Source: an uncultured bacterium
GTDB taxonomy: Bacteria > Desulfobacterota > BSN033 > UBA1163
Assembly: GCA_938045955.1 (NCBI GenBank)
Contig: CALIBK010000126.1
Span: 1 to 37,489, forward strand
Reading direction: 5' to 3'
Length of the DNA: 37,489 bases
Below the pieces are notes generated by a model. The model did not search any database. It saw only the letters and a program-made list of their open reading frames with translations, and was not told the DNA's origin. Positions within the stretch are counted from its first letter, which is position 1. Each line of letters starts with the position of its first letter. Both the position numbers and the translations under genes were made by a program. Positions 11,077 to 28,279 of the stretch are shown one piece after another.

Positions 11077-11949
11077 TTAATTTTCAATAATTTTTGCCAT
11101 TTCTTCACCCACGAGTGCTGGATTTTTAACCACCCGAACACCTGCTTTTTCTAAGGCCTCCATCTTCTCCTGGGCTGTGCCTTTACCTCCGGAAATGATC
11201 GCTCCTGCATGGCCCATTCTCCTTCCTGGGGGAGCTGTCAATCCAGCAATGAAGGCAACGACCGGTTTTCGGATTTCTTTTTCAATAAATTTAGCCGCTT
11301 CTTCTTCCGCTATCCCTCCGATCTCCCCAATCATAATTAATGCCCTGGTTTCTGGATCTTTTTCAAAAAGTCGAAGAAGATCCACGTAATCCAGTCCTAT
11401 GATTTGATCTCCACCGATTCCCACGCAGGTAGACTGCCCAATTCCTTTTTTGGTCAATTGATCCACCACTTCATAAGTTAGTGTTCCACTCCTTGACATG
11501 ATTCCAACAGGCCCTTGCCTATGGATATAACCGGCCATCACCCCAATCTTACATTTTCCAGGAGAGATAATCCCGGGGGTATTTGGACCAATCAGATTGA
11601 CATTTTTTTTACGAAGGTATTCCTTCACTTTAATCATATCTAAAGTAGGAATTCCCTCTGTTAAACAGACAATAAGAGGGATATTGGCATCGGCCGCCTC
11701 CAAAATCGCATCGGCTGCAAAGGCCGGGGGTACAAAGATTGCAGAGGCGTTCGCCTCAGTCTCCCTTACCGCCTCTGAAACGGTATTGAACACGGGAATT
11801 CCATCGACCTTCTGTCCCCCTTTCCCCGGAGTAACCCCGGCCACAATCCTTGTACCATACTCCACCATCTGGCGGGTATGAAACATTCCCTCATTTCCCG
11901 TAATCCCTTGAACTAACACCCTTGTATTCTCGTCCACTAAAATACTCAT
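11077..11949 (-). CDS. sucD: Succinyl-CoA synthetase alpha subunit
   Basis: [50 protein letters not shown] at 11949 preceded by AAAGGAGG; the 11973 ORF start is less likely. Confidence 0.95.
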
Positions 11950-11962
11950 TGGCCTTCCTCCT

Positions 11963-13135
11963 TTAGGCTCCAACCTTTTTTAAGGCTTCCACAACCTTCT
12001 GTGCCCCCTCGTACATCCCAGCCGCTACAGTAAAGTTGAGTCCAGAGTCGTTGAGAATCTTTCTTCCTTCCTCAACGTTTGTTCCTTCCAATCTTACCAC
12101 GATGGGAACCTTCACTTTTACCTCTCTTACCGCTTCTGTGACCCCTTTTGCGAGAGTGTCACATCGAAGAATTCCTCCAAAAATATTAATAAACACCACT
12201 TTTACATCGGGATCGGACATTAAAATTTTAAATCCATTCTTTACCATCTCCACCGTGGCTCCTCCTCCCACATCAAGGAAATTTGCAGGCTCTGCCCCAA
12301 AAACTTTTATAATATCCATCGTTGCCATCGCGAGGCCTGCCCCATTCACCATACAACCCACATTTCCGTTAAGTTTAATATAGTTTAAATTATATTTGGA
12401 CGCCTCAATCTCTAAAGGATCTTCCTCATGAAGATCCCTTAGGACAACAATCTCTTTATGCCGAAAGAGTCCATTGTCATCAAAATTCATTTTTGCATCC
12501 AAGGCAATAAATTCTCCATTCTTCGTTAGGATAAGAGGATTGATTTCAGCAAGTAGACAATCCTTCTCATGAAAGGCATTAAAAAGCCCAGTGATAATGG
12601 GTCTCAATTTTCCAACCTCCACTGGTCCAAAGCCTAATCCATATCCAATCTTATTCACCTGAAACGGCCTCAATCCTATGGAAGGATCTATCCATTCTTT
12701 TACAATCTTTTCAGGAGATTCAGCCGCAACCTTCTCGATCTCTATTCCTCCTTCTCTGCTTGCCATAATGACGGGGGAGGCTTTGGCCCGATCAATGACA
12801 ACCCCTAAATAGAGCTCTTCTTTTATTTCTACTCTTTCCTCGATCAAAACCTTTCGAACCACCTTCCCCTTTGGACCTGTCTGGGGAGTCACGAGGGTCA
12901 TCCCGATCATCTCCCTTGCTACTTTTTCTACCTCTGAAAGGTTCCTGACCACCCGGACCCCTCCTCCTTTCCCTCTACCACCTGCGTGGATCTGGGCTTT
13001 CAGAACAACTGGTTCAGTTCCGATCTCCTCAGAAACCCTCTTAGCCTCTTCCGCAGTTTGTATTACTCTACCTTTTGGAACAGGTACCCCATATTGTCTA
13101 AGGATCTCTTTCGCTTGATATTCATGAATCTTCAT
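11963..13135 (-). CDS. sucC: Succinyl-CoA synthetase beta subunit
   Basis: 390 aa; [41 protein letters not shown]-like/[21 protein letters not shown]. Confidence 0.95.
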
Positions 13136-13371: not shown

Positions 13372-15045
13372 TTAACGGAGCGTCCCGAGATAGTGAGTCG
13401 TAAGTTGACGTTCACGAACCTTGGGATTGGTATAATCCGGCAGAAGCATTGGAGCCACCCGATCGGTGACAATTCCTGCTTCTTCAAGCTCTCTGTGATA
13501 CCTCCTCACATGATCCAACGTCAACTTTCCATCTTTAAATTTCTCTTTGGCATAAATGGCCGCGTTCTCTCCTGCAATCCTGCCGAAGACACAGACATCA
13601 AGAAGGGAGTTTCCCATCAAACGATTTTCGCCATGAACCCCTCCGGTCACCTCCCCTGCTGCAAAAAACCCCGGGACAGAGGTCTCACATCGGCAATTGT
13701 ATTCTAATCCGCCGTTTTGATAATGAAGGGTAGGATAGACCAGTATAGGTTCTTTTGAAATGTCGATCCCATATCTTTTAAATAGAATATATTTCCCTGG
13801 AAACTCTCTCTTCACTGTTCCTTCGCCCCATAACATATCAATCATCGGAGAATCCAACCAGACCCCTACCTTCCCGGTTGGAGTAGGAACTCCTTTCCCC
13901 CTTTCTGTACATTCCCGAATAAACGAAGCCGATTCTACATCCCTTGGTTCTCGTTCGTTGACAAATTGTTCTCCATCAATATTCAGAACATTTGCACCCG
14001 CCCCTCTGAATTTCTCGGTGATTAAAAGCCCCTCTGCTTGTTCGGGAAATACTGCGCCTGTAGGATGATATTGGACTGTATGAAGAAAGCATAGTTTAAC
14101 CCCTGCTCGGTAGCCCATGACCAATCCATCTCCTGTGGCCCCATAGTGATTGGTTGTCATGAATCCCTGAATATGAAGCCTCCCCGAGCCTCCCGTGGCC
14201 ATAATGACCGCTTTTGCTTTGACCACGAAATATTCTTCTGTTTCAAGATTATAAAGAACAGCCCCTGAGCAATGTCCATGCTCATTCAATATCAATTCGA
14301 CTGCAGGAGAGAACTCAAGGACCTTTATCTCCTCAGGATGATTCCTCGCCTCATCCCTGAGAGTCCTCATAATCTCCGCTCCCGTAATATCCGCGGCATA
14401 ATGCATTCTTTTCCGGCAGGTTCCTCCCCCATGAAGGGTTTTGAGTCGTCCATCAGGGAACTTTGTAAACATACATCCCAAACTCTCTAACCAGGCGATG
14501 ACCTTGGGAGCCTCGGTGACCAAGGTATAGACTAATTCTGGATCATTTTTGAAATGTCCTCCTCCTATCACATCCAGATAATGGAAATAAGGAGAATCCT
14601 TCGTTCCCTTGGTCGCCGCTTGAATCCCTCCTTCGGCCATCATGGTATTGGCATCCCCGTGACGGAGTTTCGTAGCGATCAACACCTTTGCTCCCCTCTC
14701 CCGAGCCGTTAATGCAGCAGCGGTGCCCGCCCCTCCCCCTCCAATAATCAGGACATCTGTTTCATAAGCGATCTTTGTAAGGTCGATCAAATCTGGATCA
14801 ACCCGGCTCCGAGCTTCCAGAAGATCGACAATCTCGGGGGAGATCGCATAACCCTTATTAACTCCTACTCGAATCTCTCGTCGGGCGCCTTCTACGAAAT
14901 CAGGGTGATATTTTCTTAACCTCTCTTCTCTCTCTTTGAGAGAAAGAAGGGGAAATTCCTCCCCCCTCTTCTTCCGTTCGACCCTTGCCGGTCGGGTGGC
15001 TTCCACCTTCCTGATCAATTCTTTTAATTCCCTGGTATAAGGCAT
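13372..15045 (-). CDS. Fumarate reductase/succinate dehydrogenase-like flavoprotein (TfrA/SdhA family)
   Basis: 557 aa; FAD motif DVLIIGGGGAGTAAALTARERGA, HYQNGGLEYN, FFAAGEVTGGVHGENRLMGNSLLDVCVFGRIAG. Confidence 0.88.
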   Translation of the reverse strand: MPYTRELKELIRKVEATRPARVERKKRGEEFPLLSLKEREERLRKYHPDFVEGARREIRVGVNKGYAISPEIVDLLEARSRVDPDLIDLTKIAYETDVLIIGGGGAGTAAALTARERGAKVLIATKLRHGDANTMMAEGGIQAATKGTKDSPYFHYLDVIGGGHFKNDPELVYTLVTEAPKVIAWLESLGCMFTKFPDGRLKTLHGGGTCRKRMHYAADITGAEIMRTLRDEARNHPEEIKVLEFSPAVELILNEHGHCSGAVLYNLETEEYFVVKAKAVIMATGGSGRLHIQGFMTTNHYGATGDGLVMGYRAGVKLCFLHTVQYHPTGAVFPEQAEGLLITEKFRGAGANVLNIDGEQFVNEREPRDVESASFIRECTERGKGVPTPTGKVGVWLDSPMIDMLWGEGTVKREFPGKYILFKRYGIDISKEPILVYPTLHYQNGGLEYNCRCETSVPGFFAAGEVTGGVHGENRLMGNSLLDVCVFGRIAGENAAIYAKEKFKDGKLTLDHVRRYHRELEEAGIVTDRVAPMLLPDYTNPKVRERQLTTHYLGTLR

Positions 15046-15126: not shown

Positions 15127-15867
15127 TTATAGAAATGATTTGTCTTTTGGTTCCCAAAATTCATCTGCCTGTTCAGGTTCGATCTCCCTTTCGTTATAAA
15201 GTTTTTTAAGCGTCTCCTCATTGGTATCCATCAGTTCCCTGAGCATCTGTTCATACTTCCCCTGTCGAACTTGTTCTACCATCTCAGTAAGATGCTCCGC
15301 TTTGGGGAGAATATATTTCCCGTATAGACGTCTGCCCAGTATAGCGACATTATACTGGCAGATCTCCGCAGGACAACGAGCTGTGCAGAGCCCGCACATG
15401 ACGCAATCGAAAGAGAGTTCGGCCAATCGAGCAATATCACCTCTCATCGCCGCAGCGATATAGTCCATCACCTCAATATCCATTGGGCAGGATTTAGTAC
15501 ATGTATTACACTGGAGACACCTCAGGACTTCAGGATAGTATTTTACGATGGTTTCGATCGAAGGTTTGACCTTTTCTATATCATAAACCCTCTTTGTCGC
15601 CGGAAAGAAAGGAATCTGGGCAAGATACATATTCGGTTGGACCACGGTCTGACAGGCTAATCCCACTTCGATTTTATAGCTCCCCGGGAATCGATAAACC
15701 GTACCACAGGCTCCACAGATTCCTCCGCGACAGCCACACCCCCGAATCAATTGATATCCCGCGTATTCCATTGCTTTTTGAATGGTCAGGGAAGAAGGAA
15801 CGTCATATCGTTTTCCCATGATAAATATGGGGACTAACTCTTCCTTTTTCACTCCCTGTTCTTCCAT
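15127..15867 (-). CDS. Fumarate reductase/succinate dehydrogenase-like iron-sulfur subunit (TfrB/SdhB-like, no C-terminal CCG domain)
   Basis: 246 aa; [2Fe-2S] Cys set GCGCRGGICGACG...LAC and two CxxCxxCxxxCP motifs (CLQCNTCTKSCP, CVMCGLCTARCP). Confidence 0.85.
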   Translation of the reverse strand: MEEQGVKKEELVPIFIMGKRYDVPSSLTIQKAMEYAGYQLIRGCGCRGGICGACGTVYRFPGSYKIEVGLACQTVVQPNMYLAQIPFFPATKRVYDIEKVKPSIETIVKYYPEVLRCLQCNTCTKSCPMDIEVMDYIAAAMRGDIARLAELSFDCVMCGLCTARCPAEICQYNVAILGRRLYGKYILPKAEHLTEMVEQVRQGKYEQMLRELMDTNEETLKKLYNEREIEPEQADEFWEPKDKSFL

Positions 15868-15924: not shown

Positions 15925-17073
15925 TTAGATTGCACCGGATTCGAGTTTTAGTTCATCTTCTTTGAAGGTGGCCACTGGGGGTGGTTCGTTGACATCCCTT
16001 CCGGGCACATAGTCGAACATCTTCTGAATCCTATCTCCCACGCTTCGAAAGAGCACCGCCACCGGGAGTCGGCTCGGACAGGCACTCTCGCAGAGTCCGC
16101 ATCCGATGCAAGAGGTCACCATATGGGACATCCGGATCAAATGGAAGATGAGTGTATCGGTGGGCATCCGGATAGCTCCCTTGCGATCGGCCCATCTTAG
16201 AAATTGATCCCCTTCGTGTTCGAAGACGGCTGTTCGAAACACACATTCCTTACAATAACAGATCGGACAGGCCACCATACAATTGTGACATCGAATACAG
16301 GTCGAAAAAAGATCCAGAAACGACCCGAGGCTCTTCACCTTTCCTCTGAATTCCTCAAAAGTCTCATCTCTTTTCTTTCTCCTCTTTTCAATCACCTTCC
16401 TGAGAATTTCTTCTCTCTTCGGGTATCCCTCCGAAGTCTCCAGGTGTAATCCCTTCTCCTCCATCTCCTTCCCGAGCTTCTCCCCAACCTCCAATCCAAT
16501 CTCCCTCTCCGTTGGATATCCATAGAGTTGAATCCAGAGATCTGCCCGGGTCACCGGAAACTCACAGATCTCACAGGCTTTACGAAAGGCATATCCCTCC
16601 GGAGCCCTCTCCTCCCCTTGCTCCATTCCTTTGAAGAGCTCTTGAAAGAGGACCCCATCGCCCTTCCCCTCCTCCACCATCCTGGAATAATCGTTCACTT
16701 CAAAAGTCCCAGGACAGTCAATCCCGATGAGAAAGAGATGATCCAGTTTCACCTGAAGAAACTTCGAAAGCTCCACCATTGCCCGAATCTCACAGGCCTT
16801 AAGCACCAGGGCTACGGGTTTACTCAAATTCCTCACCGAGAGATAAGAAGCCACCCTTGCTGACTGCACCGGCATGGTGGGAGAAAGTAAACAGAGCCCT
16901 TCCATCTTCTCAGGATTACGAATCAATGTCTGGACAACCCCTTGCCCCGAAGGAAGCCTCTTAGGCACCAGGAGTGCCTCCACCACTTTCTTCTCCAAAA
17001 GGCTTCTCAATAACCCTTGAAGTGCCTCCTCGGTCTTCCCTTCAGAAACTTTCACCACCGCCTGCTTCGCCAT
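15925..17073 (-). CDS. FrhB/FdhB-like flavin/Fe-S electron transfer protein with two [4Fe-4S] motifs
   Basis: KACEIRAMVELSKFLQVKLDHLFLIGIDCPGTFEV resembles the FrhB/FdhB domain; CIRCHNCMVACP and CIGCGLCESACP. ATG at 17073 (MAKQAVVKV) has an upstream SD; ORF opens to 17115. Confidence 0.7.
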   Translation of the reverse strand: MAKQAVVKVSEGKTEEALQGLLRSLLEKKVVEALLVPKRLPSGQGVVQTLIRNPEKMEGLCLLSPTMPVQSARVASYLSVRNLSKPVALVLKACEIRAMVELSKFLQVKLDHLFLIGIDCPGTFEVNDYSRMVEEGKGDGVLFQELFKGMEQGEERAPEGYAFRKACEICEFPVTRADLWIQLYGYPTEREIGLEVGEKLGKEMEEKGLHLETSEGYPKREEILRKVIEKRRKKRDETFEEFRGKVKSLGSFLDLFSTCIRCHNCMVACPICYCKECVFRTAVFEHEGDQFLRWADRKGAIRMPTDTLIFHLIRMSHMVTSCIGCGLCESACPSRLPVAVLFRSVGDRIQKMFDYVPGRDVNEPPPVATFKEDELKLESGAI

Positions 17074-17102
17074 CTTCAGTCCTTCTCCTTTCTTTTTCTC
17101 TA

Positions 17103-17525
17103 TCAGGCATTCCACAACCGTCGCATTGGATTGGGTCCCATCTTCTTTAATTCCTCCACCATCCTGGTCACCGTATCCGCAAACAGCTTCCCCTCACTGG
17201 CACTGATCCACCTCAGCCAGATCCGATCCTCGCTAAAACCCAGCTCCCTCAGAATCTCCTTGAGAATCGCCACCCTCCTCCGAGCCTTATAATTGCCTGT
17301 CTGATAATGGCAGTCTCCGGGATGACATCCTCCGATCAACACCCCATCGGCCCCATCAATCAAAGCCTTCAAGACATAAATCGAATCCACCGCTCCGGAG
17401 CACATCAAATGAATGATTCGAATATTTGGTGGATACTGTTGACGGGTCGTTCCAGCTAAATCCGCCCCTGTATAGGTGCACCAGTGACAGAGAAATGCAA
17501 TAATCCGAGGCTCAAACTCTGCCAT
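17103..17525 (-). CDS. mvhD: MvhD-like hydrogenase/Hdr iron-sulfur delta subunit
   Basis: 140 aa; IIAFLCHWCTYTGADLAGTTRQQYPPNIRIIHLMCSGAVD...GCHPGDCHYQTGN. Confidence 0.92.
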   Translation of the reverse strand: MAEFEPRIIAFLCHWCTYTGADLAGTTRQQYPPNIRIIHLMCSGAVDSIYVLKALIDGADGVLIGGCHPGDCHYQTGNYKARRRVAILKEILRELGFSEDRIWLRWISASEGKLFADTVTRMVEELKKMGPNPMRRLWNA

Positions 17526-17574: not shown

Positions 17575-20500
17575 TCAGTCGATGGCTGAATCGAGGACCA
17601 CCAGATTCAATCCCTTCTCAAAGTTCTGCTGCTCGGAAGCGGCATTCCGACAGGCCACCACGCAATTCCCGCATCCCTCACAAAGAGCATCCCTCACCTC
17701 GGCCTTCCCCTCTTCATTCAGCACCCTCGCCCCATAAGGACAGACCGTGACACAGAGGCCACATCCACAGCATAACCTCGAAATGACATAAGCCCGGTAG
17801 GGTTTCTCCTCCCTTCTGCCCTTCGAAAGAATTACAGCCGCTCGGGCTGCCACTGCATTGCCCTGAGAGATGACATCCTCTATCAAATTAGGTGAATGAC
17901 ATAAACCACAAAAGAACTTCCCCCGCTCCAGGCCATCCAGAGGAGCCGCCTTCGGGTTGGGCTCCTTAAAAAACCCATCCGAATTAAGCTCCAACCCAAA
18001 AATTTGAGCCAAATCTTTATGATCATTCGGTTCAATCCCTGCACTCAAAATTAATCTATCAGCAGGTAAATTCACCCGATTCCCGAGGGCCGGATCAAAC
18101 ACCGAAACCCAGAGCCTCCCATCCTCCCTAATGACCTTTGGCTTCTCCTCCGGTTCATACCGAATAAAGATAACCCCCTTCTGCCTCGCCTCATGATAAT
18201 AACTCTCATAAAACCCGTAGGTCCTCACATCCCGGTAAAGGACATAGACCCTCGCCTCCGGCCTCCACCCCTTCAGCCGAAGGGCATTCTTTACCGCATG
18301 AGCGCAACAGATGCGACTGCAATAGGGATGCTCCTCATCCCTTGACCCCACACACTGAATCATCACGACGGAGCGGAGACTCCTTAGAGCCTCCTCCTGT
18401 ATGTGAATGGCCCTCTCAAACTCTCGCTGGGTCATCACCCGAGAATCCTCTCCATAAAGATACTCCTTCGGCCTGATCTCCCTGCCCCCCGTCGCAAGGA
18501 TGACCACCCCATGATCAATCCTCTCCTCACCTTCCGAAGTCCTGATCCCCGTCCGATACTGTCCATTCTTTCTCTCGCACCCTATGACCTCCGCCCCCAA
18601 AAAGAGATGAATCAAAGGATTCCCCTTTACCTTCTGAATCAGCTCTTCAAGAAATCGCTGAGGATCCTCCCCTCTTAAGGTATAATAAGACTTTCTCGCA
18701 TTCCCTCCTAACTCCTGCTCCCTTTCTACCAGAAAGACCTCATAGCCCTGTTCCGCTAACCGAAGGGAAGCGATCATCCCGGCAACCCCACCTCCAACCA
18801 CTAAACCCTTCCTTTCAACCTGATGAGACCCTCTCCGAAGAGGCTGGATCCTTCTGGCTCGCTCCACAGCCATTCGAATCAACGTAAAAGCCTTCGCCGT
18901 TGCCTCCCGTGGAAATCCTGAATGGACTAAGGCACACTGCTCCCCGATATTTGCATACTCGATCAGATAAGGATTAAACCCCATCCCCCTGGCCATCTCC
19001 TCCATCCCTTTCCGAATCTCCTTGGAAGTACAGCCCGCCACCACCACCCGATTCAAACCCTCCTCCCCGATCTTTACCTTTATTGGATGAAGATCCTCGG
19101 AGAGATGAAGTTCCTCGAGCTCTCCCACATAAACCACCTCTCGAAGTTCCTTGATCTTCTGAACCAACTCCTCCATCAAAATATTCTTCCTTAACTCCTC
19201 TCCTCGATGGCAGATAAAGACCCCTATCTTCGGAATCTCCTCCCCCAAGGCCCCTTCTACAGGATACTCCCTCTCCCTCACAGGAGAAACAGAAGAAAGA
19301 AAAGAGGCTACCATCGCCGCCGCACTGGAGCCCTCCACCACCGTTTCCGGAATATCCCGGGGAGCCCGAAAAGCGCCCCCAACGAAAATCCCCTTCACCG
19401 AAGTCTCTGCAGGACGAAACTCCTCTGTCTCACAAAAACCCGAAGCATTCAACCGAACCCCTAACCGTTGAGCCAACTCCCTCACCCCACGAGAAGGAGT
19501 AAACCCAACAGAAAGCACCACCACATCGAACTCCCTCTCCTCAAACGTTCCATCCTCCCTCACATAGGTGATCAAAAGATTCTTCGACTGCTGCCACTCC
19601 TTAACCGAAGAAACAGCACTTCGAATATACTCAATCCCATACTCCCTCTTCGCCCTCTCATAATACCGCTCATAATCCTTTCCCATCGGCCGAATATCCA
19701 TGTAAAACAGAGTCGCTTGAAGATCAGGCGCCCGTTGCTTCGCGATCATCGCCTGCTTGGTCGCATACATACAACAGATCGTCGAACAATGGGGTTGATT
19801 CGAGGAAGGATCCCTCGAACCCACGCACTGAATAAAAGCAACCCTCCCGATCCTCCTTCCATCCGAAGGACGAATCGGATATCCCCCCGTAGGCCCTGAA
19901 GTCGAAAGAAGCCTCTCAAACTGAATACTCGTCATCACATTCCGATACCGACCAAACCCATACTCCCCCTTCCTTTGAGCCCAAAAAGGCTCAAACCCGA
20001 ATCCCAATACAATCGCCCCAACCCGAAGATCCTCCTCCTCTCCCTTCATCTCCAAATCAATGGCCCCAGGGCCACAAACCCTCACACACTCCCCACACCG
20101 AATACAATTCTCAGGATCAATCACAAGACCATGCGGGATCGATTGGGGAAAAGGTAAATAAATCGCCTTCCGCCTCTCCAACCCTCCCCCGAACTCCCTC
20201 TCCACCTCCACCGGACAGACCTCCACGCAAGCCCCACAAAACGTGCAACGCTTAAGATCCACAAACCGTGGCTTCCGAAATACCCTGACCCGAAAATCTC
20301 CACCCTCCCCCTCAACCCCCCTCACCTCACAATAAGGAAGAAGCTCTATATTCTCATGAAGACGACTCTCATAAATCGGACAGAAAGCAGGAGGCGTGGG
20401 ACTCAAAAAACAGACCCCACAGGAGTTCGTCGGAAACGTCCGGTCCAATAACGGAAAATACCCCCCAATCGCAGGCGCCTGATCCAGAAGAAAAACCCTC

Positions 20501-20604
20501 CTTCCCATCTCTCCCAATAGAAGAGCAGCCTGCATCCCCGCAATCCCAGCACCCATCACCAACACCGAACCCTTATCTCCCTTCATCTTTCCCTGCTCCA
20601 TCAC
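17575..20604 (-). CDS. hdrA: Tandem-fused HdrA-like protein with two FAD modules and ferredoxin motifs
   Basis: 1009 aa; two dinucleotide-binding starts (VLVMGAGIAGMQAALLLGEMG; LVVGGGVAGMIASLRLAEQG), two CVGSRD...CSxICC motifs, internal and C-terminal 4Fe-4S motifs. Confidence 0.9.
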   Translation of the reverse strand: MMEQGKMKGDKGSVLVMGAGIAGMQAALLLGEMGRRVFLLDQAPAIGGYFPLLDRTFPTNSCGVCFLSPTPPAFCPIYESRLHENIELLPYCEVRGVEGEGGDFRVRVFRKPRFVDLKRCTFCGACVEVCPVEVEREFGGGLERRKAIYLPFPQSIPHGLVIDPENCIRCGECVRVCGPGAIDLEMKGEEEDLRVGAIVLGFGFEPFWAQRKGEYGFGRYRNVMTSIQFERLLSTSGPTGGYPIRPSDGRRIGRVAFIQCVGSRDPSSNQPHCSTICCMYATKQAMIAKQRAPDLQATLFYMDIRPMGKDYERYYERAKREYGIEYIRSAVSSVKEWQQSKNLLITYVREDGTFEEREFDVVVLSVGFTPSRGVRELAQRLGVRLNASGFCETEEFRPAETSVKGIFVGGAFRAPRDIPETVVEGSSAAAMVASFLSSVSPVREREYPVEGALGEEIPKIGVFICHRGEELRKNILMEELVQKIKELREVVYVGELEELHLSEDLHPIKVKIGEEGLNRVVVAGCTSKEIRKGMEEMARGMGFNPYLIEYANIGEQCALVHSGFPREATAKAFTLIRMAVERARRIQPLRRGSHQVERKGLVVGGGVAGMIASLRLAEQGYEVFLVEREQELGGNARKSYYTLRGEDPQRFLEELIQKVKGNPLIHLFLGAEVIGCERKNGQYRTGIRTSEGEERIDHGVVILATGGREIRPKEYLYGEDSRVMTQREFERAIHIQEEALRSLRSVVMIQCVGSRDEEHPYCSRICCAHAVKNALRLKGWRPEARVYVLYRDVRTYGFYESYYHEARQKGVIFIRYEPEEKPKVIREDGRLWVSVFDPALGNRVNLPADRLILSAGIEPNDHKDLAQIFGLELNSDGFFKEPNPKAAPLDGLERGKFFCGLCHSPNLIEDVISQGNAVAARAAVILSKGRREEKPYRAYVISRLCCGCGLCVTVCPYGARVLNEEGKAEVRDALCEGCGNCVVACRNAASEQQNFEKGLNLVVLDSAID

Positions 20605-20641: not shown

Positions 20642-21487
20642 TCATCCCAATCCCAGAGACTCCAGCAGAGGCCGAGGAGAAATTAAATGCTTCGCCCACC
20701 ACCTCTCCCTCTGCTCCACATCAAAAGCCAACCCCATCAACTCCGTAAAATAAAAGACAGGAAGACCCAACTCCTGCCTCATCTCCAAATTCATCTGACA
20801 TAACCCACAAGAAGTCACGATCGCCTGAGCCCCAGCCTCCACCGCCATAGAGAGAATCCTTCCCACCATCTGGCTCACAATCGATCCATAGGTCATCGCT
20901 AAATCCGCCCCACAACAGTCCACCTTATACGACCACTCCACCGGCTGAGCCCCAAGGGTCCTCATCAATCGCTCCATCGCCTGTGGATTCTCCGGATCAT
21001 CAAACCCCGTCACCTTAGGATGACGAACCAGGGCACACCCATAATAACAAGCCACCTTCAACCCCTTAAGAGGCCTCTTTACTCTCTCATCAATCCTATC
21101 CAAACCAATTCGATTCACCACCACATCCAATAACGCCAAAATCTCCAAAGAAGGATCATACCTAAAACCCACAATCTCCTCCACCACCCTCCTCTCCTTC
21201 TCATCATTCCTCAGGACATACTCCGTTTTCTTCAAATTACTAAAACACCCCGCACACGGAACCACCAGCCAAGAAAGCCCCGATCCCAAAGCCTTCGAGA
21301 TAATCCGCGCAGGAAGACAGAGAGAAAGAAGACGATTCAAACTGTGAGTGGCTGCAGCCCCACAACAGTTCCAATCCTCCACCTCCACTAACTCCACCCC
21401 TAAGACCCTGAATACCTCCTCCGTCGATAAGCCATACTCCATCGATGAAGAACGATCTGTACAACCCGGAAAATATGAAACCCTCAT
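20642..21487 (-). CDS. hdrB: HdrB-like CCG-domain subunit (set 1)
   Basis: 281 aa; two CCG motifs: NCCGAAATHS...PCAGC and DCCGADLA...SCGLC. Confidence 0.92.
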   Translation of the reverse strand: MRVSYFPGCTDRSSSMEYGLSTEEVFRVLGVELVEVEDWNCCGAAATHSLNRLLSLCLPARIISKALGSGLSWLVVPCAGCFSNLKKTEYVLRNDEKERRVVEEIVGFRYDPSLEILALLDVVVNRIGLDRIDERVKRPLKGLKVACYYGCALVRHPKVTGFDDPENPQAMERLMRTLGAQPVEWSYKVDCCGADLAMTYGSIVSQMVGRILSMAVEAGAQAIVTSCGLCQMNLEMRQELGLPVFYFTELMGLAFDVEQRERWWAKHLISPRPLLESLGLG

Positions 21488-21528: not shown

Positions 21529-22110
21529 CTATTGCTTCTTCGTACATCTCTCAAAGATCCTTCGAATCTCCTCCCTCTCCTTCACAAAACTCGGAAATAA
21601 AGGAAACTTACCCTTTAAAAAAAGCTTCACCCCCGAACCTAACGAATCCTTCATCAAATCCCTGCTCCTTAAGACATAATCCATCAGCATCGTCACCTCA
21701 TGAACCCTCCCCCCTCTCCTCACACTCTGAATAAAAGCCTCGTGAAGTAGGTGAATCCTTCTCTCCTTCACCTCCACCCCCTCTCCCACCGCCATCTCCC
21801 TGAGCGCATCCATCAACACCCCAATGTGAATCTCATTCGGACACCGGGTCCCACAGGTCTGACAATACACACAAAACCAGATCGCCCCACTGCCCAATAC
21901 CTCCCCTCTCCTCCCCATCTGAATCATCCGAATCAACTGATGCGGCTTAATATCCATATACGGAGCCGTCGGACAACCTGCCGTACACTTCATACACTGA
22001 TAACATAGATCCAAGTGTTCCCCACTCCGCCTCCGAACCTCCTCCAAAAAAGAGAAATCCCCTTCCCCTAACCTCAACCCACCTTCCCACATCTCCTTCA
22101 TCACTGCCAT
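21529..22110 (-). CDS. hdrC: HdrC-like iron-sulfur subunit (set 1)
   Basis: 193 aa; CYQCMKCTAGCPTAPYMDIKPHQLIRMIQMG and CVYCQTCGTRCPNEI. Confidence 0.92.
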   Translation of the reverse strand: MAVMKEMWEGGLRLGEGDFSFLEEVRRRSGEHLDLCYQCMKCTAGCPTAPYMDIKPHQLIRMIQMGRRGEVLGSGAIWFCVYCQTCGTRCPNEIHIGVLMDALREMAVGEGVEVKERRIHLLHEAFIQSVRRGGRVHEVTMLMDYVLRSRDLMKDSLGSGVKLFLKGKFPLFPSFVKEREEIRRIFERCTKKQ

Positions 22111-22125: not shown

Positions 22126-24075
22126 TTATATAAAGGTATCCACCATTCGAAGGGTCTGAACCGATGATGAATTTCGTAACTCACATGCAAAATTAGGACA
22201 AGAAGCAATACAGGCCCCGCATCCTTGACAGAGGGCAACATGAACGATGGAGATTCCCCGTCGATAGTCCATCTCCCTTGCCTCATAGGGGCATATCTCA
22301 ACACAAATCCCACAACCGCTACAAACCGTTTCATCCACGTAAGCAATGAGTGGATCCTGAAAAAGTTTGTCCGTTGAAAGAAGGGCCTGGATTTTACCCG
22401 CTGTGGCCGATGCCTGGGAGACGGTATCGGTGATATCTTTGGGACTTTGCCCACAGCCTGCCAGATAGATCCCTTTGGTGGAACTCTCCACGGGGTAGAG
22501 TTTGATATGGGCTTCGGTCAAAAATCCGTGTTTATCAACAGTGGCTCTTAATTTGGCTGCGAGCTCCTTCACCCCCTCAGAGGGAATGATCGCTGTTGCC
22601 AGAACCACCAGATCTGCACCAATCTCTATCCCTTTTCCGGTCAGGGTATCCACCCCCCAGACTTTGACCTTCCCATCCTCCTGGAAAACCCTTGACACCC
22701 TTCCCCTGAGGTAGAGAACTCCATTCTCTTCGATCGTCTTCTGAAGAAATTCCTCATAACCCTTTCCATCCGAACGAATATCCATATAGAAGACATAGGG
22801 TTGTCCATCCGGAACCTGTTCTTTGTACATCTTTGCCTGTTTTGCAGTATACATACAACAGATTCTTGAACAGTAAGGCATATAACGATCAGGATCCCTC
22901 GAGGCCACACATTGGATAAAAACCATCTCCTTTGGAACCCTTCCATCAGAAGGACGGAGGATTTTCCCCCGGGTAGGCCCATCAGGTGATAACATCCGTT
23001 CAAAGGCGAGTCCATCGATCACATCCGGAATCTCCCCATACCCGTATTCTCCTAACCTTTCTTTTGGGAAAAGGTCAAATCCGGTGGCAATGACAATGGC
23101 TCCGACTTTTCTGTGGATCCTCTCATCTTTTTGATCGAATTGAATGGCTTTTTCAGGACAGACCTCCTCACACTTTCTGCAGCTTCGATCTTGGAAGTAC
23201 CGGCATTGAGTTGGAGTGACCTTAACGCGTTTAGGAACACAGTTGGGGTAAAGAAAATCGACCGCCTTTCTCATTCCCAACTCTCTATCAAAGGAAGAGG
23301 GATATTCCACCGGACAGACTTCGATACATCGTGCACACCCATTGCATCGTGTCCAATCCACATAGGTAGCTTTTTTATGGATAATTATCTCAAAATTTCC
23401 TACATAACCCTTCACCTCTTCCAGTTCCGAGCAACAAAATAATTCAATCTTTGGATGACTTACTATCTCTAAGGCCTTCGCGAGGAGATTTGGAAAAGCT
23501 GGTGAAAGATCGGGGAAGGTTTTTGAAAGTTGGGCCATATGTCCACCCAGGGCTGGCCCTTTCTCAACCAGGAACACTTCATATCCTCCCTGGGCCAGAT
23601 CGAGGGAGGCTGTCATTCCAGCAATGCCTCCTCCGATCACCAAAACATTTCTGTTGATGCTCATCGCTAAGGGTTCGAGTTCTTCATTCCTTCTCACTTT
23701 CTCTAAGGTGGCCTGAATGATTTCCATCGCCTTCCGGGTGGCTTCTTCTTTCTCTTTTTGATGAACCCAGCTGCACTGCTCCCGAATATTCGCGATTTCA
23801 CAGAGATAAGGGTTCATTCCCGCTGTCTTGACAGCTTTGCGAAAGGTATTTTCATGCATACTCGGCGAGCAACAGGCGACCACCACTCCCTCTAACTGCT
23901 TCTCCTGAATGGCCTCTCGAATGAGTTGTTGTCCGGGCTCTGAACACATGTAGATGTAGTCTATGCTATGACAGACATCCTCGATTTTACCAATCTCCTC
24001 TGCCACTTTTTTCACATCCACCGTGCCGGCGATATTCACTCCACAGTGACAGATAAAAACTCCCAATCTCCGCAT
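22126..24075 (-). CDS. hdrA: HdrA-like flavoprotein, full length (set 2)
   Basis: 649 aa; N-terminal GVFICHCGVNIAGTVDV domain, FAD domain, inserted ferredoxin, C-terminal CSGCGICVEICP...CQGCGACIASCP. Confidence 0.92.
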   Translation of the reverse strand: MRRLGVFICHCGVNIAGTVDVKKVAEEIGKIEDVCHSIDYIYMCSEPGQQLIREAIQEKQLEGVVVACCSPSMHENTFRKAVKTAGMNPYLCEIANIREQCSWVHQKEKEEATRKAMEIIQATLEKVRRNEELEPLAMSINRNVLVIGGGIAGMTASLDLAQGGYEVFLVEKGPALGGHMAQLSKTFPDLSPAFPNLLAKALEIVSHPKIELFCCSELEEVKGYVGNFEIIIHKKATYVDWTRCNGCARCIEVCPVEYPSSFDRELGMRKAVDFLYPNCVPKRVKVTPTQCRYFQDRSCRKCEEVCPEKAIQFDQKDERIHRKVGAIVIATGFDLFPKERLGEYGYGEIPDVIDGLAFERMLSPDGPTRGKILRPSDGRVPKEMVFIQCVASRDPDRYMPYCSRICCMYTAKQAKMYKEQVPDGQPYVFYMDIRSDGKGYEEFLQKTIEENGVLYLRGRVSRVFQEDGKVKVWGVDTLTGKGIEIGADLVVLATAIIPSEGVKELAAKLRATVDKHGFLTEAHIKLYPVESSTKGIYLAGCGQSPKDITDTVSQASATAGKIQALLSTDKLFQDPLIAYVDETVCSGCGICVEICPYEAREMDYRRGISIVHVALCQGCGACIASCPNFACELRNSSSVQTLRMVDTFI

Positions 24076-24109
24076 AGTTACCCTTAGATTTTATGCCTTC
24101 CGATGGTCG

Positions 24110-25423
24110 TCATGAGTATCTGGCGAATAAACTTTGGACCTTACTTGCCGCTGCATTCGCATGAGCCACTGTATCGGCAATATCTTTAGGCCCCTGGACA
24201 CACCCTGCTAAATAAATCCCTTCTCGGTTCGTCTCCACCGGTTTCAGTTTCCTATCGGCCTCGGTCAGGAAACCGTATAAATCAATGGGAATCCCTAATA
24301 TCTGAGCTAAAGCCTTCACCTCTTGATGAGGGATGATCGCTGTAGCCAGAACCACAAGATCGGCCAACACCTCTACCTTTTTCCCTGTCAGGGTATCCAC
24401 CCCCCAAACTGCAATCTTTTCTCCATCCCGGAAGATCCTTGAAACCCGTCCTCTTAAATAGAGAATCCCTTCTTCCATCGTCTGTTGAATAAATTCTTCG
24501 TATCCTTTTCCTGTAGATCGAATATCCATGTAAAAGATATAGACCTGGCCCTCATGAACTTTATGTTTGTACAGTCGGGCATGTTTCGCGGTATACATGC
24601 AGCAAACCCTTGAACAGTAGGGCATATATCGTTCCGGATCTCTTGAGCCTGTACACTGGATAAACACAACCTCTTTAGGAACCTTTCCGTCCGAAGGTCT
24701 TCGGATTTCTCCGTTCGTGGGTCCAGAGGCCGAATTCAGTCTCTCAAAAGAAAGCCCATCAATCACATCTGGAATCTCCCCATATCCATATTCTCCAAAT
24801 CGTTCGATGGGCATCAGATCAAAGCCGGTAGCGACAATAATCGCTCCAACCTTTTCTTCGATGATCCGATCCTCTTGTTGATAATTGATCGCCCCGACCG
24901 GACAGATCTTTTCACACACCCGGCATTTTTTCTCCAGAAAATAACGACAGTGAGAAGTGTTGATAACAGGTTTATTGGGAACGGCCTGGGGAGAGAGGGT
25001 ATAGATTGCCTTCCCAAGACCCATCCCTCGATCAAATTCAGATGGGTATTTAGAAGGACATTTCTGTTGACAAAGACCACATCCTGTACATTTCTCCCAA
25101 TCGACGTAGCTTGCTTTTTTACGAATCTGAACGATAAAATTCCCAGCTTGACCCTCTACCCGGACCACTTCTGAATAGGTGTGTAATTGAATTCGGGGGT
25201 GCTGACCTGTTTCTACGGTCTTTGGGGTAAGCGTGCACTGGGCACAGTCAAGGGTGGGAAAGGTCTCGGAAAGCTGAAGCATCCGGCCCCCAATGGAGGG
25301 TAATTTCTCTACCAGCAGGACATTGTATCCAGCATTCCCAATATCAATCGACGCAGTAATCCCGGCAATCCCCCCACCTATTACCATTGCCTTTTTGATA
25401 AAACCATTCCCGGAAGAACCCAT
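24110..25423 (-). CDS. hdrA: HdrA-like flavoprotein, truncated paralog (set 2)
   Basis: 437 aa; VIGGGIAGITASIDIGNAGYNV, FPTLDCAQCTLTPKTVE, inserted ferredoxin; lacks the N-terminal CHCG domain and C-terminal ferredoxin present in the neighbour. Confidence 0.9.
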   Translation of the reverse strand: MGSSGNGFIKKAMVIGGGIAGITASIDIGNAGYNVLLVEKLPSIGGRMLQLSETFPTLDCAQCTLTPKTVETGQHPRIQLHTYSEVVRVEGQAGNFIVQIRKKASYVDWEKCTGCGLCQQKCPSKYPSEFDRGMGLGKAIYTLSPQAVPNKPVINTSHCRYFLEKKCRVCEKICPVGAINYQQEDRIIEEKVGAIIVATGFDLMPIERFGEYGYGEIPDVIDGLSFERLNSASGPTNGEIRRPSDGKVPKEVVFIQCTGSRDPERYMPYCSRVCCMYTAKHARLYKHKVHEGQVYIFYMDIRSTGKGYEEFIQQTMEEGILYLRGRVSRIFRDGEKIAVWGVDTLTGKKVEVLADLVVLATAIIPHQEVKALAQILGIPIDLYGFLTEADRKLKPVETNREGIYLAGCVQGPKDIADTVAHANAAASKVQSLFARYS

Positions 25424-26425: not shown

Positions 26426-26839
26426 TTACGAAAGAAACTTTCTGAAACCACTGATAAAGGCAATCTGAGGAACTCTTTCTAAAAATCCTTCCGGGAATTC
26501 AGAAATTTGAAGATAGTCTCTTCGTTCCTTCTTCCGCAGGATGACCATCCGAAGGGCATCCATCACCCGAGCAATATCAATGCCCTTGGGACATCTTGAA
26601 CTGCATTGAAGACAGGAGGCGCATAGCCAGAAGGTATTAACCGAAAGGACTTCTTCCTCCAGGCCCAGCAGGGTGTATCGAATCACTTCGTGAGGCCCAA
26701 GGTCCATGGCAAATGCCACAGGACAACCAGCGGTACAATTCCCACATTGATAACAGGCAAAGAGATTCTGTCCACTGATCCATTCCACTTTTTTTGCAAA
26801 CTCATTGTGAACTTTATCCCTGGATAATTCGATTTTCAT
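26426..26839 (-). CDS. hdrC: HdrC-like iron-sulfur subunit (set 2)
   Basis: 137 aa; CYQCGNCTAGCPVAFAMDLGPHEVIRYTLLG and CASCLQCSSRCPKGI. Confidence 0.92.
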   Translation of the reverse strand: MKIELSRDKVHNEFAKKVEWISGQNLFACYQCGNCTAGCPVAFAMDLGPHEVIRYTLLGLEEEVLSVNTFWLCASCLQCSSRCPKGIDIARVMDALRMVILRKKERRDYLQISEFPEGFLERVPQIAFISGFRKFLS

Positions 26840-26855: not shown

Positions 26856-27413
26856 TCAGGGTCTTTTATACTTCTTCTCCCCTTCGATATAAAGATCATT
26901 TCCATATATATCATTTATGACGATCACCGGAAAGTCTTCAACCTCTAATCTACGGATGGCCTCTGGACCCAGGTCTTCATAGGCGACAATTTCAGCTCGT
27001 TTGATTCTTTTGGCTAAGAGCGCCCCGGCTCCACCTGTGGCTGCAAAATAGACCGCCTTATACTTCTTCATCGCCTCTTTCACCAAATCAGACCGCATTC
27101 CCTTCCCGATCATTCCTTTCAAGCCCTTTTCAATTAAAGCAGGAGAGTAGACATCCATCCGATAACTCGTCGTGGGCCCCGCAGACCCAAAGACCTTTCC
27201 GGGAGGAGCAGGAGAGGGTCCCACATAATATATAATCTGCCCTCTGATGTCAAAAGGAAGATCTTTTCCCCCTTGGATTAAATCAAAGAGTCTTTTATGG
27301 GCTGCATCCCTTCCTGTGTAAAGAATCCCATTAATAAGGACTCGATCTCCAATTCTCAATCTTTCTACATCCTCATCTCTGAGAGGCGTCTTTAGGCGAA
27401 TGGACTCAGGCAT
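26856..27413 (-). CDS. Fumarate hydratase class I, beta (C-terminal) subunit
   Basis: 185 aa; GPSPAPPGKVFGSAGPTTSYRMDVYSP, YFAATGGAGALLAK, EAIRRLEVEDFPVIVINDIYGNDLY. Confidence 0.93.
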   Translation of the reverse strand: MPESIRLKTPLRDEDVERLRIGDRVLINGILYTGRDAAHKRLFDLIQGGKDLPFDIRGQIIYYVGPSPAPPGKVFGSAGPTTSYRMDVYSPALIEKGLKGMIGKGMRSDLVKEAMKKYKAVYFAATGGAGALLAKRIKRAEIVAYEDLGPEAIRRLEVEDFPVIVINDIYGNDLYIEGEKKYKRP

Positions 27414-27439
27414 CTCTCCCCCTCTCTCCCAATCTTTTT

Positions 27440-28279
27440 TTAAAGGATAACCTCTTTATGTCGATGGGCATGGCATTGAATATTGACAGCCAGAGGTAAA
27501 CTGGCAATATGACATGGCATCATCAGGATATGAACAGCCAGAGAAGTCGTCCTTCCCCCCAGCCCCTGCGGCCCTATTCCAAGCCGGTTAATCTCTTCAA
27601 GAATTTCGGACTCCAATCGGTCAAGGTCTGGATCAGGGTTTCGGCTTCCAAGGGGCCGAAGTAAGCTCTTTTTTGCAAGAATTGCAGCCTGCTCAAAATT
27701 TCCACCAATCCCCATTCCAATGATTGTAGGGGGACAGGGATTTGACCCTGACTCTTTCACTCGCTGGACAACATATCTCTTGATGCCTTCCATGCCATCG
27801 GAAGGGCTCAGCATCACGACCCGACTCATATTTTCGCTCCCCCCACCCTTTGGAGCCACAATGAGCCTTACCCTATCTCCAGGAACGATTTCCATATGAA
27901 GAATTGGAGGAGTATTATCCCCTGTATTGGCCCGGCTAAAAGGATGGCACATGGATTTTCTCAGATACCCTTCTCGGTATCCTCGTCGGACTCCTTCAAA
28001 GAGGGCCTCTTTTAGATCTCCCCCAACAAAGTGAACCTCCTGTCCCACTTCAAGAAAGATGACAGCAACTCCGGTATCCTGGCAGATGGGAACCCTCTCC
28101 TCCTTTGCAATACGGGCATTCTCCTTCAACTCCTTGAGGATCTCAATGGCCAAGGGAGATTCTTCCTTCTCAATAGCACGATCAAAGGCTTGAAGAACAT
28201 CTTCCCCTAAATCGGTGTTCGCCTCGATGCAGAGTTCCTTTACCTTCTCGGTAATCCGTCTTACCTCTATCTCTCTCAT
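27440..28279 (-). CDS. Fumarate hydratase class I, alpha (N-terminal) subunit
   Basis: 279 aa; CQDTGVAVIFLEVG, PKGGGSENMSRV, CPPTIIGMGIGGNFEQAAILAKKSLLRP, MPCHIASLPLAVNIQCHAHRH. Confidence 0.93.
   Translation of the reverse strand: MREIEVRRITEKVKELCIEANTDLGEDVLQAFDRAIEKEESPLAIEILKELKENARIAKEERVPICQDTGVAVIFLEVGQEVHFVGGDLKEALFEGVRRGYREGYLRKSMCHPFSRANTGDNTPPILHMEIVPGDRVRLIVAPKGGGSENMSRVVMLSPSDGMEGIKRYVVQRVKESGSNPCPPTIIGMGIGGNFEQAAILAKKSLLRPLGSRNPDPDLDRLESEILEEINRLGIGPQGLGGRTTSLAVHILMMPCHIASLPLAVNIQCHAHRHKEVIL

Follow-up and report, generated by a model that had tools for sequence, protein, structure and literature searches.

How might two adjacent HdrA genes function when neither encodes all the cofactor sites of an HdrA subunit? 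This question is raised by a locus within the window, the entire 37,489-nucleotide stretch of DNA analysed here, whose source genome (G000) is a MAG of 2.69 Mb from a family with Syntrophaceae/Deltaproteobacteria MAGs as its closest named relatives; three genes of the methylmalonyl-CoA-mutase family were found in it, and DsrA gave no match. The set of N-terminal domain (NTD), Cys197 and C-terminal ferredoxin, which a canonical HdrA carries on one chain, is here divided over two.

Two HdrA paralogs in a fumarase and fumarate reductase gene cluster

Both genes lie on the minus strand, with HdrA-short (24110–25423; 437 aa) preceding HdrA-long (22126–24075; 649 aa) in transcription and 34 bp between them. 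Their best PDB matches are HdrA chains in both cases, and pairwise alignment of the FAD/inserted-ferredoxin core gave 256/426 identities (60%) with a single gap; all 4 + 8 cysteines of the TrxR/FAD four-Cys cluster motif and of the inserted 2x4Fe-4S ferredoxin are present in each. HdrA-short has neither an NTD nor a C-terminal ferredoxin, and its motif FPTLDCAQCTLTP holds Cys60 and Cys63 (codons 60–63, Cys-Ala-Gln-Cys, 25235–25246), the homologues of the two cysteines in the corresponding FPTNDCSICILAP of HdrA from 5ODC, which are 194 and 197 when numbered from the alignment. HdrA-long retains the NTD (23686–24075), with Cys9, Cys11, Cys44 and Cys69, as well as all eight cysteines of the C-terminal ferredoxin; its version of the motif, FPDLSPAFPNLL, has Pro192 and Pro195 in place of both cysteines (codons 192–195, Pro-Ala-Phe-Pro, 23491–23502). 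The first-pass annotation, made from the sequence alone, had described two proteins closely similar through the core, the shorter with the cysteine pair but without terminal domains and the longer with both domains but without the pair, and each part of this description holds at the residue level. The AlphaFold model of HdrA-long (pLDDT 83.7) fits solved HdrA chains with TM values of up to 0.89 (8rvu_A), and its Cys-less loop (188–192) is of low confidence and poorly ordered.

Purifying selection on both genes is strong, with dN near 0.1 and dS saturated. Chance or an assembly error was rejected as the source of the architecture, because all same-order genomes with the pair show the Cys-less motif and the short form again; chance or decay was likewise rejected on the grounds of this conservation and of the selection acting on both genes.

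On the minus strand, transcription would proceed from malate dehydrogenase through the fumarase subunits (26856–28279; alpha 27440–28279, beta 26856–27413), an HdrC-like 4Fe-4S protein (26426–26839) and an HdrB with CCG domains (Pfam PF02754; 25473–26339) to HdrA-short and HdrA-long. These are followed by a second HdrC-like 4Fe-4S protein (21529–22110), 15 bp downstream of HdrA-long, a second HdrB with CCG domains (20642–21487), a fused double HdrA of 1009 aa (17575–20604), an MvhD/FlpD electron-input subunit (PF02662, E 1.3e-52; 17103–17525), a 396-aa 4Fe-4S protein that is kept across this cluster type (15925–17115), FrdB-like (15127–15867) and FrdA/TfrA-like (13372–15045) proteins, and SucC and SucD of succinyl-CoA ligase (11077–13135). 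The intergenic gaps from fumarase to FrdA range from −13 to 86 bp, and the arrangement therefore resembles a single operon, with two Hdr modules of which the first contains the split HdrA.

Distribution, reciprocal losses and history of the split

The distribution of the pair was surveyed by a named-genome scan, an architecture table, 17 same-order genomes and a phylum sample of 247 genomes. Both paralogs occur in 16 of the 17 same-order genomes, adjacent in 15 and cut by a contig end in one; the pair is absent from the remaining genome. In the phylum sample, 27/247 genomes gave a strong match; nearly all of these have the two genes side by side, and two carry a single complete HdrA. A search of one archaeal phylum returned mostly full-length and long-frame HdrAs. 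Three states can be distinguished among Hdr-Frd clusters: a single complete HdrA in the same operon type (for example L015, L020 and L033), a split pair (L009, L010, L012, L014, L016, L019, L028, L030 and L038), and intermediates. By record title, the split pairs belong to Deltaproteobacteria, Methylomirabilis, Anaerolineae, Spirochaetales and a Pseudomonadota MAG. A lone half was never found in a cluster of this type, and the single-HdrA clusters (L015, L020, L033) carry a complete, symmetric HdrA. Orphan genes of the HdrA-short type, remote from any Hdr genes, are present in three Chloroflexota MAGs (L013, L021 and L023), and one of their genomes (G002) lacks a Cys-less long altogether. Obligate pairing, as initially suggested, thus stands for the operon but does not extend to all short-type HdrAs. 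In L021, a 570-aa ORF at 2723 resembles aldehyde:ferredoxin oxidoreductase.

In an alignment of 19 pairs with 19 full-length single HdrAs, every cysteine of the NTD, the Cys194/197 motif and the ferredoxins is present in all of the complete single proteins (19/19). Among the pairs, the C-terminal ferredoxin is restricted to the long copy without exception (19/19), while NTD cysteines are restricted to the long and Cys197 to the short copy in 17/19; the inserted ferredoxin has gone from the long copy in seven pairs and from the short copy in none. The two exceptions, L011 from a Thermodesulfobacteriota MAG and L185 from genome G091, are intermediates that still hold both features: their upstream copy has lost the C-terminal ferredoxin, and its NTD, although drifted, holds most or all of the cysteines, and their downstream copy has lost Cys194 (to Asp and Arg) and kept Cys197. 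No unit lacking both NTD and Cys197 was found among 169 HdrA units. The losses are reciprocal, conserved and under purifying selection, and together the two proteins provide one complete set of cofactor sites. Adjacent HdrA genes of which one is NTD+/Cys197− and the other NTD−/Cys197+, the arrangement by which Chadwick et al. 2022 recognize tandem HdrAs, are what is found here.

A tree built on 333 core columns, with the motif and the inserted ferredoxin excluded, places 16 pairs in a single duplication (support 100/98), with short and long subtrees of matching topology; the two L185 copies group together as sisters (97/97), whereas the placement of the Anaerolineae pair is unsettled. In the best tree, Cys197 has to be lost three times among the longs and the NTD three times among the shorts, with the two sets of events on matching branches. 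Single clades for all pairs except L011 were not rejected by AU tests (shorts, p = 0.135; longs, p = 0.406), nor were alternatives to a separate L185 duplication (p 0.18–0.19). The tree accordingly favours, without proving, parallel losses within the main clade, and asymmetry is likely to have arisen repeatedly within this HdrA lineage, probably with the same polarity more than once. Tree positions apart from the HdrA-short/HdrA-long pair are taken by the fused HdrAs and by another tandem type, described below, which supports the view that asymmetry as a whole arose more than once. The order of losses may have begun with the C-terminal ferredoxin of the short copy and Cys194 of the long copy, continued with the NTD and Cys197 together, and ended with the inserted ferredoxin of the long copy, the endpoint being the part list of a fused HdrA.

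A putative HdrA–HdrA′ heterodimer and its alternatives

One ligand of the NTD cluster in the solved HdrA dimer is Cys197 from the partner subunit (PMC9012536), so that among the possible combinations the short–long heterodimer alone would rebuild this site. We consider it probable, at roughly 85%, that HdrA-short and HdrA-long form an asymmetric HdrA–HdrA′ heterodimer that originated in the duplication of one full-length HdrA. The adjacency of the pair, the matching subtrees, the reciprocal losses and the same division within the fused HdrAs of the operon all point in this direction. Complementary loss after duplication, together with the known contribution of Cys197 to a cluster of the other subunit, also lends support to the original suggestion of subfunctionalization into an asymmetric pair. 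By analogy with the published homodimer, Cys63 of HdrA-short, the predicted ligand donated to HdrA-long on the basis of sequence and 5ODC homology, would complete the NTD cluster of HdrA-long, and the dimer would hold one such cluster, not two. Electrons would enter or leave via the sole remaining C-terminal ferredoxin, that of HdrA-long, and then the flavin, beyond which two branches may lead to HdrBC and, via the NTD cluster and the inserted ferredoxin, to free ferredoxin.

Several points count against the heterodimer: an orphan short in a genome without a Cys-less long (G002); the possibility that HdrA-long uses a non-cysteine ligand or holds a cluster with NTD ligands only; the retention of Cys197 in the long of the closest intermediate, L011; and a degraded NTD site in the fused HdrA of the window, so that a functional NTD cluster is not preserved in all HdrA units of the window. 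In one unlikely alternative, HdrA-long would form homodimers in which only the four NTD cysteines, or these plus a non-Cys ligand, bind the NTD cluster, and HdrA-short would be a separate electron carrier or a homodimer. All longs retain the four NTD cysteines, which are sufficient in number for a 4Fe-4S cluster, and orphan shorts occur in the three Chloroflexota MAGs. However, canonical HdrAs keep Cys194/197 as strictly as the NTD cysteines (19/19), and the loss of Cys197 in the long copy accompanies that of the NTD in the short copy, in genes that are adjacent and have matching trees.

The fused HdrA of the window offers another potential partner. Its short-like half, which comes first, keeps a Cys194/197-type motif, while the long-like half has an NTD and a C-terminal ferredoxin and no motif cysteines; two of the four NTD cysteines have been lost (FICHRG, HLSED). 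HdrA-short might pair with a half of this protein in a larger mixed assembly, leaving HdrA-long aside, and the presence of both kinds of half in the same operon as well as the degraded NTD site would agree with this. We nonetheless regard such an assembly as quite improbable: adjacency and mirrored trees tie HdrA-short to HdrA-long, and the fused protein in L009, L010 and L012 retains its own complete set. In these three loci the fused HdrA keeps its NTD cysteines; in L011, all of them are lost. As a natural stand-in for the heterodimer, the fused HdrA gave an AlphaFold model with a pTM of 0.83 that is consistent with two packed halves. Finally, the redundancy and decay of one HdrA copy, although domains and ligand cysteines have been lost from both, is very hard to maintain, being already contradicted by the purifying selection on both genes given above and by conservation, with the remaining Fe-S cysteines kept in both window copies and the state persisting over several phyla.

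The same genome carries a second tandem asymmetric HdrA pair (L089:4676-8885; G000:C105), composed of a 747-aa short with a large insertion and the Cys motif and a 644-aa long without the motif cysteines. Its neighbours are an acyl-CoA dehydrogenase, EtfAB and a methylmalonyl-CoA-mutase-type gene. Separately, several canonical HdrAs carry an in-frame TGA codon precisely where Cys197 would be encoded (FPTLDCSA*; L090, L102, L032, L049, L064, L072 and L078), and two of these, L090 (G000:C104:3554-5464) and L102, have a second at NTD Cys11. These codons likely specify selenocysteine at the inter-subunit cluster site; if so, their occurrence at both Cys197 and Cys11 fits the two residues sharing one site.

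Putative fumarate reductase link and relation to known Hdr systems

FrdA and FrdB are encoded together with HdrABC and MvhD, and no membrane anchor gene intervenes. No FlxA-like NADH-binding gene was seen in the window operon. The FrdB-like protein, with N-terminal 2Fe-2S-type cysteines and two 4Fe-4S motifs, was assigned by sequence and position. The FrdA-like protein retains the counterparts of the E. coli FrdA substrate-site residues (HPTG, the RG Arg, the PT-HY His and the NRL Arg), and an Asn aligns with the covalent-FAD histidine of the E. coli protein. Loss of covalent FAD in this family favours fumarate reduction over succinate oxidation, and the Asn may be taken as a lead towards the former. 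A FrdA paralog (57%) is located at G000:C121:6888-8483. From gene order, there is a somewhat better than even chance that the pair works with the HdrCB, fused HdrA, MvhD and FrdBA products in a soluble bifurcating or confurcating complex linked to fumarate/succinate. Its most likely role, as far as sequence can tell, would be to use the asymmetric HdrA dimer to couple the turnover of fumarate/succinate, in either direction, to ferredoxin; we infer both heterodimerization and fumarate-linked bifurcation. A fuller scenario, to which we hold tentatively and at less than even odds, is that of asymmetric heterodimers arising repeatedly with one polarity (upstream short, downstream long) and through ordered losses, with the operon encoding a bifurcating machine that is linked to fumarate and contains two asymmetric HdrA units.

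The concept of an asymmetric HdrA heterodimer is already published for ANME archaea and for a Moorella fusion. Tandem and fused HdrAs of ANME archaea show NTD/Cys197 complementarity, and heterodimers were proposed for them (Chadwick et al. 2022, PMC9012536). In ANME HdrA5/HdrA6 and HdrA12/HdrA13, an NTD+/Cys197− copy stands beside an NTD−/Cys197+ copy and the C-terminal ferredoxin is complementary, as it is here; by contrast, the present pair comes from a bacterium, is nested among the full-length HdrAs found in Hdr-Frd clusters, and is accompanied by intermediates with both features. Fused (type II) HdrAs (Lyu et al. 2025, PMC12054007), such as ANME HdrA3/HdrA4 and the HdrA of Moorella MetVF-HdrABC-MvhD, also combine two HdrA cores with complementary Cys197 and NTD, but do so in one chain, as does the fusion in the window (17575–20604), whereas the present pair is unfused and sits in another part of the tree. 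The Cys197 half comes first in the bacterial fusions, and the NTD half first in ANME HdrA3/4 according to Chadwick's text (PMC9012536). Methanogen HdrABC-MvhADG and other Hdr complexes (5ODC, 7BKB, 8RVU) have the same fold and cofactor motifs, but their HdrA is one complete gene and forms a dimer of identical chains. The 'succinate operon' of Pseudoclostridium thermosuccinogenes, a proposed bifurcating fumarate reductase, likewise unites fumarase, Hdr genes and fumarate reductase (PMC7282089, citing Koendjbiharie and van Kranenburg 2019); it is described there with a Flx-Hdr (NADH) module, whereas the window operon has two Hdr modules. A literature search, mostly of papers outside subscription journals, found no earlier description of a bacterial tandem pair with Frd.

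What is new here is the bacterial, comparative and evolutionary content. The heterodimer idea developed for ANME archaea is extended to bacteria with independent comparative evidence, and the intermediates L011 and L185 show a route from a symmetric to an asymmetric bifurcating dimer. Since one operon type exists with a single HdrA, in intermediate form and with the fully split pair, the role of asymmetry in electron bifurcation becomes testable.
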